A DNA stretch of 64,000 nt. Origin: Oscillospiraceae bacterium Zagget12 (GTDB lineage: Bacteria; Bacillota; Clostridia; UBA1381). The translations under genes and the position numbers were made by a program. This document shows, one piece after another, positions 13,839-18,786 of the stretch; positions within the stretch are counted from its first letter, which is position 1, and each line of letters starts with the position of its first letter. The notes beneath the pieces are model-generated. The model was not told where the DNA came from and searched no databases. It worked only from the letters and a program-made list of their open reading frames with translations. The stretch covers positions 1-64,000 of the forward strand of contig MSHM01000040.1 in NCBI GenBank assembly GCA_001941225.1. Direction: 5' to 3'.

Positions 13839-16292
13839 ATGAAAAAGATAATTTCTATTATACTGACAGCCGTGATGCTGATAGCAGCCGTTCCGGTAAT
13901 GGCAGATTGGGACAATGACGAGGATATAATGTCACTGCTGTCGGAATTAAATATAATGGTCGGCGACAGCGACGGAAATCTGCGCTTGGACGATTACGTT
14001 TCCAGAGCGGAATTCGCAAAAATCGCGGTAGCGTCGTCAAGCTACAAAAACACCGTAGCGTCGGGACTTAAGGTATCGCCGTTTAAAGACGTTACCTATA
14101 GTCACTGGTCGGCTGCGTATGTAAAGGCGGCTGTTTCTGCGGGAATTGTTTCCGGATACCTTGACGGAACATTTAAACCCGATAACAGTGTTTCCTATGA
14201 GGAAGCAATTACAATGATACTTAAGGTATTGGGATACACCGATGATGATTTCGGAGTTTCCTATCCTTACGGACAAATAGGTCTTGCGGAAAATCTTGAG
14301 CTTACAAAGAATGTGGACGCGGTTCAGGGCGAGGCGCTTACAAGACGTCAAGTGGCAAACCTTGTATATAACGCGCTAAACACCAAAATGAAGGATTCCT
14401 CGAGTAAGCTTATCACCATTTTCGACTGCGAGGTTATAGAGGGCGTTACGATTATAGCGTCGCATAACGAGGACAGCTCGCTCGGAACCGATAAGATATA
14501 CACAACTGCGGGAACATATGAGTTTAACGATAATTTCGACAGCGATTATGTCGGCAGACGCGGAGATATAGTTATAAAGAACGGCGATGATTTCGTTTCG
14601 TTCACACCGCGCGACCAAACGGTGGAGGAATACACGGTTACAAACGTAATCGGTTCGGATACAATCCTTGACGGAGATATGTACGATATAAACTCAAACA
14701 CTACCGTTTACTATAAGTCAAGCACGCTTACATACGAATCGGCGGCGTCGGAGGCGTCTGCGGGAGATACGTTCAAGCTGTTCAAGAATTCAAGCGGCAG
14801 CGTTGATTACTGTATGCTGATTGCGCAGTCGTCGCAGCTTACAACGTCGGATTCCGTTAAGAAATATATCATCTATTCACTGCTTTCGGACGCTGTTATA
14901 TGCTATAATAACGGCAGCTTTGAACAGATAAATATTACGGACGGAACAACCTGCTATAAGGACAGCACAAAGAGCACATACGGCTCCGTAAAGAGCAGTA
15001 TGGCAATGGGCGATATACTTTACGTAAAGATGAACGGCAGCAGCATCGACTATGTAAGCTATGAAGAGGGCAATATGGAAGGTCCTATCAGAGTTACAAG
15101 CTCAAGCTGGTTGTCTAACTTCACAACCAACGGTTCAACCGCTATAATGCGCAACGGTACAAAGGTAACATCATCGGATATTCAGACGAATGATATTATC
15201 TATTACAGCGAGGATCTGAATATGATACTTGCTTACACGGATAAGGTAACGGGTATTTATGAAAAGGCATCGCCCACAAAGGATTCGCCGACAACAATTA
15301 CCGTTTCAGGCACAGAGTATACAATAGAGAGCGTAGAGGCGTTCAACGCGCTGTCATCAAGCGGCGACATCGCTTACGGCGATACGGTAACTCTCCTGCT
15401 CGGCAGAACCGGCGAGGTAGCGGGCGTAATAAGCGGAAACGACACAAGCATCACCGCCACCGGATTTGTTATCGAAACGGGTAAAAAGGACTTCTCCAAC
15501 TCGGACGGAACGACATATTCAAGCTATTACGTAAGGCTTGTCACACCTGACGGAACCGAGAACGAATACACAACAAGCTCCGATTGCAGCTCGCTTAAAT
15601 GCGCCGTTGTACGCGTAACCTTTAAAGACGGAAAAGCAAACCTGTCAAAACAAACAGGATATAATTCCGTATCGGGCAAGGTAAGCTATTCAAAGGGTAC
15701 AATAGGCAGTACGGAGCTGGCTGACGACGTTAATATTCTTGACACCGTCGGCACATACAGCGATGATGTTGCGATGTATTCCAAGATTTACACCCAAAGA
15801 ATCGACGGCGTAACAATAAGCACATCAAGCGTATTGTATTATTCAATGAATACAGCCGGCGAGATTGACGAGCTTATACTCAGAGATGTAACGGGCGACT
15901 CTTATGATTACGGTCTTGTTCTGAAAGCCGACACGACAAATAAGTCGTACACCATAGATATAGACGGCTCGCAGAGCACATACACAACGTCCTTCTCGAC
16001 AAGCACCACGGGACCGTATAAATTCAGAATGGACAGCTCGGGAATTGATTATATGATAGCGCTTACGCAACATTCAAGCAATATAAGCGAGCTTACCACC
16101 ACAACGGCTACAATATCAAAGCAGGAGTATCTTTTGAGCGATAAGGTTGTTGTATATGAAAAGACGGGAGTCAGCTCATATATGAAGATAAGCCTTAACG
16201 ACGCAATAAACGGAGATTACAGTAAGCTTACCGCGTATTACGATAAGGCTCAGACCTCCGGAGGAAGAATCCGTGTTATAATAGCTCAGTAA
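13839..16292 (+). CDS. SLH-domain surface protein in the exporter operon
   Basis: An 817-residue exported protein. The ATG at 13839 gives a compact signal peptide (MKKIISIILTAVML, cleaved near residue 22) and correct spacing from GGAAGG; an ATG at 13833 is too close to it. Residues 30-180 carry S-layer homology repeats, seen as DYVSRAEFAKIAV, FKDVTYSHWSAAYVKAAVSAGIVSG and GEALTRRQVANLVYNAL, which anchor proteins to pyruvylated wall polymers. The rest is beta-rich, Ser/Thr-rich and unassigned. The gene begins only 18 bases after the permease, so it is probably co-transcribed with the exporter. Confidence 0.85.
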   Translation: MKKIISIILTAVMLIAAVPVMADWDNDEDIMSLLSELNIMVGDSDGNLRLDDYVSRAEFAKIAVASSSYKNTVASGLKVSPFKDVTYSHWSAAYVKAAVSAGIVSGYLDGTFKPDNSVSYEEAITMILKVLGYTDDDFGVSYPYGQIGLAENLELTKNVDAVQGEALTRRQVANLVYNALNTKMKDSSSKLITIFDCEVIEGVTIIASHNEDSSLGTDKIYTTAGTYEFNDNFDSDYVGRRGDIVIKNGDDFVSFTPRDQTVEEYTVTNVIGSDTILDGDMYDINSNTTVYYKSSTLTYESAASEASAGDTFKLFKNSSGSVDYCMLIAQSSQLTTSDSVKKYIIYSLLSDAVICYNNGSFEQINITDGTTCYKDSTKSTYGSVKSSMAMGDILYVKMNGSSIDYVSYEEGNMEGPIRVTSSSWLSNFTTNGSTAIMRNGTKVTSSDIQTNDIIYYSEDLNMILAYTDKVTGIYEKASPTKDSPTTITVSGTEYTIESVEAFNALSSSGDIAYGDTVTLLLGRTGEVAGVISGNDTSITATGFVIETGKKDFSNSDGTTYSSYYVRLVTPDGTENEYTTSSDCSSLKCAVVRVTFKDGKANLSKQTGYNSVSGKVSYSKGTIGSTELADDVNILDTVGTYSDDVAMYSKIYTQRIDGVTISTSSVLYYSMNTAGEIDELILRDVTGDSYDYGLVLKADTTNKSYTIDIDGSQSTYTTSFSTSTTGPYKFRMDSSGIDYMIALTQHSSNISELTTTTATISKQEYLLSDKVVVYEKTGVSSYMKISLNDAINGDYSKLTAYYDKAQTSGGRIRVIIAQ

Positions 16293-16356: not shown

Positions 16357-16384
16357 ATGTTACAATATGTTACAAAATGTTACA
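16357..16384 (+). repeat. Three helically phased ATGTTACA repeats
   Basis: ATGTTACA occurs at 16357, 16367 and 16377, exactly 10 bases apart and therefore on one face of the helix. The last copy ends 36 bases before the -35 hexamer of the HD-gene promoter, a position suited to an activator. No binding factor is identified. Confidence 0.7.
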
Positions 16385-16420
16385 GAAGATTAAAAATAAA
16401 TAAATTAATAAGTCAAATTA

Positions 16421-16449
16421 TTGACATATTCGGGTCTTGATATTATAAT
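16421..16449 (+). promoter_or_regulatory. Consensus sigma-A promoter of the HD-domain operon
   Basis: TTGACA and TATAAT, both perfect hexamers, are separated by exactly 17 bases. The HD-domain gene starts about 58 bases further on. Confidence 0.85.
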
Positions 16450-16507
16450 AAGGGGTGTGGAAAAATATCGAAAATTGCTATCCTGCATATAAAGGCGGTA
16501 TAAATAA

Positions 16508-17014
16508 ATGAATTCTGTTTCGTATTGCTTACGCAATCTGTCCGAGAAGTCAAAGCTGCGCCGAATGGAGCGGTTTATTCAGCATGGAAATACCACCTGC
16601 CTTAAGCATACAATCGCGGTGGCATATTACAGCGTAAAGCTGGCAAACTTTTTCGGTATCGAATATAATAAGCACGCTCTTATACGCGGCGCGCTGCTGC
16701 ACGATTATTTTCTGTATGACTGGCACGACGGAGCAAAGGGCAGAAAAATACACGGATTTACTCATTCCGCAGCGGCTCTTTTTAATGCCGAGAGGGACTA
16801 TTTGCTCACCGATATTGAGCGCGATATTATAAAAAAGCATATGTTTCCGCTTACACCGGTTCCGCCGATGTGCCGAGAGGCGTGGATAGTATGCGCGGTG
16901 GATAAGCTATGCACGCTGTATGAAACCATTAAAAGACGGGACGCGTACTATGCGTTGGAAACCAAAAGAATAGGGGACTATGCGGAATTGTATAATGAGA
17001 TACGAATGATTTGA
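16508..17014 (+). CDS. HD-domain phosphohydrolase-like protein
   Basis: A 168-residue cytoplasmic protein with the HD-superfamily metal motif: a first His in CLKHTIAVA near residue 35, the HD pair in RGALLHDYFLYDWHD near 69, later His in IHGFTHSAA and IIKKHMFPL, and a final Asp in IVCAVDKLC. Members hydrolyse phosphate esters or nucleotides, but the substrate cannot be named. AAAGGCGG precedes the ATG. The next gene starts 16 bases downstream, so they form a two-gene operon. Confidence 0.8.
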   Translation: MNSVSYCLRNLSEKSKLRRMERFIQHGNTTCLKHTIAVAYYSVKLANFFGIEYNKHALIRGALLHDYFLYDWHDGAKGRKIHGFTHSAAALFNAERDYLLTDIERDIIKKHMFPLTPVPPMCREAWIVCAVDKLCTLYETIKRRDAYYALETKRIGDYAELYNEIRMI

Positions 17015-17640: not shown

Positions 17641-17688
17641 AGCTGCCCATAGGTATATCAAAGGATATATCTGCGGGCAGCTGTTTTT
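17641..17688. terminator. Bidirectional terminator between convergent genes
   Basis: AGCTGCCC (17641-17648) pairs with GGGCAGCT (17675-17682), and GGTATATC with GATATATC inside, followed by a T-run. It lies between the PF06541-like gene and the recombinase gene and overlaps the latter's stop codon by two bases. Confidence 0.85.
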
Positions 17689-18736
17689 ATTGCCTTGACC
17701 CTTTTATGTCAAAGCCGCGCATAACCTCTTTGCGTTTTTCTATCGCGTATTGGGTGTAGTATTTGTGAGTGACCTCGATGTTTTTGTGTCCCATAAGCTC
17801 AGCCACCATTTTTATATCCACTCCGTCGGCAATCATATTGCAGGCGAAAGTACGCCTCAAGGCGTGCGGACGCGCCTTGTCGGGATCGTATATTCCGACG
17901 GTGTGACAGTATTTTTTCAGTATTTTTTCAACTCCCTGCGCCGTCATACGCGTGCCGAGCCTGCTTATAAAGAGGGCGTTGTCCTTTGCCTTTTCGTTTT
18001 CTGTTCTTTCCTGCATATATGCGAATAATTCATTTTCCACCTGAACCGGCATAAAAACCTCCTGCTCGTCGCCGCCCTTGCGCGTGACAACGAAGGACGA
18101 GGTGTCAAAGCAAACATCGTGCATATCGAGATTTATAAGCTCGCTTACGCGGCAGCCCGTGCCGAGGTAGGCGGTAAACAGAGCGATGTCGCGCTGTTTT
18201 CTGTTTTTGTATTCTGCAAGGTCGCGTCCGGTGTAGTATTTTTCGCCGTTATAGATAACGTCAAGCAGATTTACGGTTTCCTGAGTTGTGAGCGGACGTT
18301 TCATCTTTTGATGCACCTTTTTGAAATCCACCTTGTCGGTAATGTTCTGCGAAATGAGGTCGTTTTTGTAAAGGTACGCGAATAATCCGCGTATGCCGGA
18401 CAGCTTGCGGTTTATTCCGTAGGCGCTGTTTCGGCGCACGCGCTTTACGTGCTTGCCGTCAATGGTTACGGTGTCGGTTTCATATTCCTTGAGGTACGCG
18501 GTGAATCCGTTTAAATCGCGCAAAGTTACCTGCTCCATATGCTCCACCGTGAAATCCTCCGTGTTTGCTACGTCCTTAAAATGAAATTTCTGCAAATATT
18601 CAAGAAAGGTTTTTATATCGATGCTGTAGCCTATCTGCGTGTTTATGCTTTCGCCGTTGTAGGCGATTTCTATGTAATCGAATACAAAATCGGGAAGATT
18701 TGAAAGAAAATTCATAAGCTTGGTGTGCTTGCTCAT
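17687..18736 (-). CDS. XerS-like tyrosine recombinase
   Basis: A 349-residue site-specific recombinase. All catalytic residues are visible: Arg196 in CRVSEL, Lys220 in TRKGGD, His291 and Arg294 in HALRR, His317 in GHKN and Tyr326 or Tyr327 in YYTQ. The length and N-terminal layout (LPDFVFDYI, TLRDLNGFTAYL, a stretch linking to RKQRDIAL) match streptococcal XerS, the single recombinase that resolves chromosome dimers, better than the roughly 300-residue XerC or XerD. The start at 18736 follows AGGAGATGG; the longer ORF overlaps the promoter. No attachment site, excisionase or phage gene is nearby, so a housekeeping role is more likely than an integrated element. Confidence 0.8.
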   Translation of the reverse strand: MSKHTKLMNFLSNLPDFVFDYIEIAYNGESINTQIGYSIDIKTFLEYLQKFHFKDVANTEDFTVEHMEQVTLRDLNGFTAYLKEYETDTVTIDGKHVKRVRRNSAYGINRKLSGIRGLFAYLYKNDLISQNITDKVDFKKVHQKMKRPLTTQETVNLLDVIYNGEKYYTGRDLAEYKNRKQRDIALFTAYLGTGCRVSELINLDMHDVCFDTSSFVVTRKGGDEQEVFMPVQVENELFAYMQERTENEKAKDNALFISRLGTRMTAQGVEKILKKYCHTVGIYDPDKARPHALRRTFACNMIADGVDIKMVAELMGHKNIEVTHKYYTQYAIEKRKEVMRGFDIKGSRQ

Positions 18737-18757
18737 AATACCATCTCCTATAGAGCC

Positions 18758-18786
18758 ATTATATAATGAAATCAAATTCAATGCAA
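18758..18786 (-). promoter_or_regulatory. Promoter of the XerS-like recombinase gene
   Basis: On the minus strand TTGCAT (18781-18786) and TATAAT (18758-18763) are 17 bases apart. The -10 lies inside a perfect 12-bp palindrome CATTATATAATG at 18757-18768. Confidence 0.65.

Follow-up and report, generated by a model that had tools for sequence, protein, structure and literature searches.

A genus-conserved array of TGTTACA half-sites, a candidate response-regulator operator, upstream of an HD-domain and PF06541 gene pair in Oscillospiraceae bacterium Zagget12

We examined a 64,000-nucleotide stretch of the genome of Oscillospiraceae bacterium Zagget12 (assembly GCA_001941225.1, contig MSHM01000040.1, positions 1–64,000; hereafter the window), in which three copies of ATGTTACA precede the promoter of a gene for an HD-domain protein and an adjoining membrane-protein gene. 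The preliminary description of this DNA proposed that the copies recur every 10 bases, end 36 bases before a perfect promoter, and form a site for an activator or response regulator controlling the pair. The features of the locus are listed below, with G000 denoting the source genome and the other G numbers genomes of the same genus.

16357..16364, + strand: half-site 1, ATGTTACA; register kept in G004, present as TGTTA in G009 and G012
16367..16374, + strand: half-site 2, ATGTTACA; TATTA in G004, TGTTA in G009, G010, G012, and G015
16377..16384, + strand: half-site 3, ATGTTACA; the best conserved register, with TTA there in 10/12 genus orthologues
16387..16396, + strand: possible weak fourth half-site, GATTAAAAAT; in phase, opening an AT-rich stretch, with TTA in register in 5/12 orthologues
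16421..16426, + strand: −35 hexamer TTGACA; present in 12/12 genus orthologues
16444..16449, + strand: −10 hexamer TATAAT; N17 spacer and TATAAT in 12/12 genus orthologues
16508..17014, + strand: HD-domain protein, 168 aa, PF01966
17031..17633, + strand: membrane protein, 200 aa, PF06541 (putative ABC-transporter type IV); adjoins the HD gene in 12/12 genus orthologues

The upstream neighbor gene encodes an SLH-domain protein and ends at 16292, and the intergenic region (29% G+C) contains, in order, GGAA-ATGTTACA-AT-ATGTTACA-AA-ATGTTACA-GA-AGATTAAAAATAAATAAATTAATAAGTCAAATTA-TTGACA-N17-TATAAT. The copies start at 16357, 16367, and 16377, and a gap of 36 bases (16385–16420) separates the last from a core promoter (16421–16449) that matches the consensus at 12 of 12 positions with a 17-base spacer. 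The period, the distance, the perfect promoter, and the HD-domain and membrane-protein pair proposed earlier were thus all borne out. Judging from the position of the −10 hexamer, transcription would start near 16456, which would place the array at about −99 to −72.

The window contains ATGTTACA seven times where 1.45 copies are expected, and none of 100 shuffles reached seven. A first-order Markov model of the window predicts about 2e-7 occurrences per 1.9 Mb of the exact triple, TGTTACA-N3-TGTTACA-N3-TGTTACA; the genome-wide search suggested in the preliminary description found it once in the source genome, at this locus, and not at all in the remaining 69 family genomes searched. When the pattern was relaxed to TGTTA-N5-TGTTA-N5-TGTTA with at most one mismatch, nine places matched in the 16 genus genomes, and six of these, including all three exact matches, were this promoter. 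The reversed control also gave nine matches, so the total is not raised, only the concentration at the HD promoter.

Orthologues of the HD gene are present in 12 of the 16 genus genomes, each followed by the membrane-protein gene and preceded by TTGACA-N17-TATAAT. Relative to the −35 hexamer, TGTTA is found at −63, −53, and −43 in G000, at −63 and −43 in G004 (where the middle copy is TATTA), at −64, −54, and −44 in G009 and G012, and at −54 and −44 in G010 and G015; single copies occur in G011 (−43), G013 (−55), and G006 (−11, outside the array). A period-10 triple score, compared with 2000 dinucleotide shuffles per orthologue, gave P ≤ 0.0005 in six genomes (G000, G004, G009, G010, G012, and G015) and P values of 0.0035–0.03 in G011, G005, and G001. 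TTA occupied one register (−42/−41) in 10 of 12 genomes, whereas 2000 shuffles reached at most 7; with one genome taken per lineage, lineages being groups of similar promoters, the figure was 5 of 7 (P 0.005). The promoters of G009, G010, G012, G013, and G015 amount to roughly one lineage and those of G000 and G004 to another; the strong array thus occurs in two lineages, and other genomes retain weaker copies in phase.

The reverse complement of TGTTACA (TGTAACA) is almost the same sequence, and the window alone therefore cannot separate a direct repeat from overlapping inverted half-sites; judged by the orthologous sequences, it is a direct repeat. The array accordingly has the general form of OmpR/PhoB-family tandem operators, namely direct half-sites in helical phase (10–11 bp).

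The exact triple occurs in 49 stretches of the genome contigs scanned, a mixed lot counted without a reversed-pattern control, and viral contigs gave 74 stretches with the triple against 12 for the reversed pattern. In L098 (Desulfobacterales), L099 (Desulfobacteraceae), and L113 (Thermodesulfobacteriota), the triple precedes an LTXXQ-motif protein gene and then a response-regulator gene, with one further gene between the two in L113. The response regulator consists of a receiver and a Trans_reg_C domain in L098 and L113, both of which also contain a histidine kinase gene; the L099 stretch ends past the receiver. L089 has the LTXXQ gene alone before the locus ends, and L110 has neither the LTXXQ protein nor the regulator in the stretch read. 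These five delta-proteobacterial-type stretches were chosen by their downstream genes and are support rather than a blind count; in L098, L099, and L113, the triple is likely an autoregulatory box. A different arrangement, TGTTACA arrays facing TGTAACA arrays between genes, is found in Bacteroidota-type stretches (L069, L075, L076, L081, L083, L086, and L094) and is probably another kind of element, possibly a hairpin or repeat element.

We consider it fairly likely that the repeats form an operator of tandem half-sites at which a response regulator of the OmpR/PhoB (winged-helix) family modulates the HD/PF06541 promoter. This reading draws on the constant register of the array relative to a promoter that the genus conserves, the concentration of TGTTA-triple matches at that promoter, the closer identity of the array than of either flank between G000 and G009, the matches to published boxes discussed below, and the association in L098, L099, and L113; the sequence, the phasing, the fixed distance to −35 within the genus, and the box matches are seen directly, and binding of a response regulator to the array is predicted from them. 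DNA-binding domains would lie head to tail along a single face of the helix, ~70–100 bp before the start, on TGTTACA half-sites spaced by 10 bp. A dimer, once phosphorylated, would span two adjacent half-sites, and a third or fourth half-site would lengthen the complex along that face. The bound regulator would then modulate the strong sigma-70-type promoter driving the HD/PF06541 pair, and because the array lies ~36–64 bp above the −35 hexamer of a perfect consensus core, modulation (for example, through contact with the alpha-CTD) would be expected rather than an all-or-none switch. Of the activator or response-regulator site proposed earlier, a response-regulator-type operator in helical phase is thus consistent with the box matches, the genus conservation, and the triples before response-regulator operons, whereas activation was an assumption made for a core promoter that already matches the consensus throughout. 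We infer that binding would modestly stimulate rather than repress.

The source genome encodes seven Trans_reg_C proteins (L213–L219), four of which were included in an NCBIfam scan. L213 scored highest against YycF/WalR (271 bits; cut-off, 340) and next highest against RpaB (241 bits; cut-off, 330), both below the cut-off, and is found in 16/16 genus genomes at 86–100% identity. In the stretch that we take to be the recognition helix, placed from a presumed family layout, L213, L214, and L215 share R-T-V-D-V-x-x-x-R, and L216, L217, L218, and L219 differ. The same spacing separates Arg199, Val203, and Arg207, reported for RstA (PMC4117788). By this weak sign, the candidates would be L213, L214, and L215. 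The 11-bp form, TGTWAHA-N4-TGTWAHA, matched 120 times in the genus against 76 for the reversed control, with near-palindromic places counted on both strands. Among the first one or two loci per genome, each judged by the match nearest the locus center (for L258, a neighboring 10-bp match), 24 of 28 with the 11-bp form and, with the 10-bp form, 11 of the 24 newly returned lay outside long open frames. The genus probably uses a half-site language of the WalR type. Since the WalR/RpaB-like regulator is present in all 16 genus genomes and 11-bp sites are enriched, the binder is probably L213 and not another of the seven Trans_reg_C proteins.

Two other arrangements of such half-sites were observed. 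L237 (G000:C19:17449) and L230 (G004:C76:232) contain a mixed 10/11-bp array, TGTAACA-N3-TGTAAAA-N4-TGTAATA, that is kept in both species; it is intergenic, beside an FtsH-like gene (named by its N-terminus), and in G000 a divergent gene for an SLH-domain-like secreted protein lies opposite. In L229 (G001), L236 (G006), and L233 (G007), a secreted-protein gene, seemingly orthologous across the three species, is preceded at ~100 bp by a TGTWACA pair with 10-bp spacing.

Several results weigh against the operator proposed here. TTACA triples with at most two mismatches were no more frequent than their reversed-pattern controls in G000 (7 vs. 7) or G004 (3 vs. 3). Half-site pairs at period 10 numbered 13 among the matches listed for the 16 genus genomes against 22 reversed-control matches, and a second such search gave 46 against 64 (near-palindromic places again counted on both strands), with no enrichment of a 10-bp regulon; on these counts, the array at the HD promoter is a special case outside any visible 10-bp regulon. 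The period-10 triple score was not significant in G006 (0.11), G003 (0.12), or G013 (0.69). No array lies within the 1.5-kb flanks of the seven Trans_reg_C genes (best triple 12–14 of 21), and autoregulation by the genome's own OmpR-family genes was rejected for want of an array at any of these loci. The published period of WalR and VicR boxes is 11 bp (PMC9210968, PMC4168254), as opposed to 10 here.

The array is also confined to the genus. The HD orthologue occurs in 23 of 54 genomes outside it, and 15 of the 23 have the core promoter TTGACA-N17-TAnnnT; the other 8 have no TTGACA-N16-18-TAnnnT in the stretch and were left out of position scoring. The array is absent in all 15 scorable orthologues (best 9–12 of 21, P at least 0.08). 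Since the promoter is kept there and the array is absent, the core promoter is the older element and the array a feature of the genus, conserved, as far as these sequences tell, only within it. The lack of conservation in orthologous promoters that the preliminary description had named as counting against its proposal is therefore found outside the genus (0/15) and not within it. A consensus promoter, moreover, rarely needs an activator: strict activator dependence is unlikely, and the 12/12 consensus core, together with TTGACA-N17-TAnnnT in 15 distant orthologues without the array, indicates that there is probably no such dependence.

Phased AT-rich DNA that bends or serves as an UP element for RNA polymerase, rather than a regulator site, is the alternative that survives best. 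It agrees with the low G+C of the intergenic region, with the AT-rich stretch preceding −35 that is kept in several genus orthologues, and with the persistence of the core promoter outside the genus without the array. However, the G of TGTTA is needless for bending, yet TGTTA stands in register in two lineages, and the array is 0.63–0.70 identical between G000 and G009, G010, G012, and G015, whereas the stretch beside −35 is only 0.25–0.38 identical (for G009, 0.70 in the array and 0.28 and 0.38 in the flanks). We regard this explanation as unlikely.

A DNA-binding protein that is not a response regulator, with a site private to the HD promoter, would account for the near absence of the triple elsewhere in the 16 genomes, which is unlike the site of a global regulator. 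In half-site, direct orientation, and 10-bp phase, however, the array agrees with the OmpR/PhoB family, and no dedicated regulator gene adjoins the pair in the window, its scanned neighbors encoding a transporter, the SLH protein, a recombinase, and AddB; such a protein seems distinctly improbable. The recombinase, of the tyrosine type (17687–18781, − strand), is convergent with the pair, and its best NCBIfam match is XerS (172 bits, cut-off 267).

A PhoP/PhoB phosphate box is less probable again, even with TTACA-type tandem repeats at the locus and a PhoB-like regulator (L216) and pst genes in the genome. Read by eye, the genus's pstS-type promoters contain TTTTACA or TTAACA units that lack the G and are mostly ~11 bp apart, and phosphate control of the kind seen at those promoters was rejected because both unit and spacing differ from the array. 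Upstream of pstS-type genes in L016–L026, the TTTTACA/TTAACA units ~11 bp apart are, again by eye, probable Pho boxes in their own right. In one PstS-like protein (G000:C44:2636-3412; L022, L039), the two halves of its match to the TIGR02136 profile have changed places, 161–294 first and then ~33–157, as if the protein were circularly permuted; similar proteins occur in G004, G001, G006, and G007 (L023, L024, L025, and L026), in open reading frames of ~301–306 aa with a lipoprotein-like start.

Least probable of all is a TnrA/GlnR-type (MerR-family) nitrogen operator: the overlapping 17-mers at 16358–16374 and 16368–16384 both fit what we take to be the consensus, TGTNANAWWWTNTNACA, but that fit follows from the near-palindromic TGTTACA, and the inverted TGTNA and TNACA halves are not kept in the orthologues, G009 and G012 retaining TGTTA and losing the TNACA end of the first 17-mer (TGTTAAAAATTGTTATG), as in a direct repeat and not a palindrome.

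A response-regulator operator at this promoter is ordinary in type and of a known kind, genus-conserved and well placed. It offers, for two adjacent genes of unknown function, a precise, mutable operator whose geometry is fixed, along with a shortlist of seven regulators of which one is favored. If the WalR-like regulator binds, the HD/PF06541 pair would be tied to cell-envelope signaling, and 10-bp versus 11-bp spacing would be a testable way for one regulator to separate its targets. A more tentative and rather doubtful extension is that an envelope-sensing WalR/RpaB-like regulator reads the genus-specific, nearly private array (three or more TGTTA at 10 bp) at this pair and 11-bp pairs elsewhere, spacing sorting two target classes.

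Literature searches found no paper joining "HD domain" with PF06541 or "RstA box" with GTTACA, and excerpts of work on TGTTACA, response regulators, and clostridia held nothing on this element. Three published operators resemble it. The RstA box, TACATNTNGTTACA, has tandem TACA sites 10 bp apart, with the bound domains in head-to-tail arrangement along one side of the DNA (PMC4117788); its period equals that of the array, though two positions differ from the sequence here (TACAATATGTTACA), and RstA was the best match of none of the four regulators scanned. The cyanobacterial RpaB box, HLR1, consists of (G/T)TTACA(T/A)(T/A) twice with 2 nt between (PMC9241938) and shares the 10-bp period: copies 1 and 2 of the array (GTTACAAT-AT-GTTACAAA) fit it exactly and copies 2 and 3 with one departure. 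It differs in having two copies rather than three, in lying at −45 to −60 (PMC9241938) rather than at about −99 to −72, and in belonging to another phylum, and, among the four regulators scanned in the source genome, the scores of L213 (240.9 bits) and L214 (216.5 bits) against the RpaB equivalog fall below the cut-off of 330. The WalR and VicR boxes read TGTWAH-N5-TGTWAH (PMC9210968) and TGTWAHA-N4-TGTWAHA (PMC4168254), and for the WalR/YycF/VicR group, the half-site itself agrees, TGTTACA being an instance of TGTWAHA.
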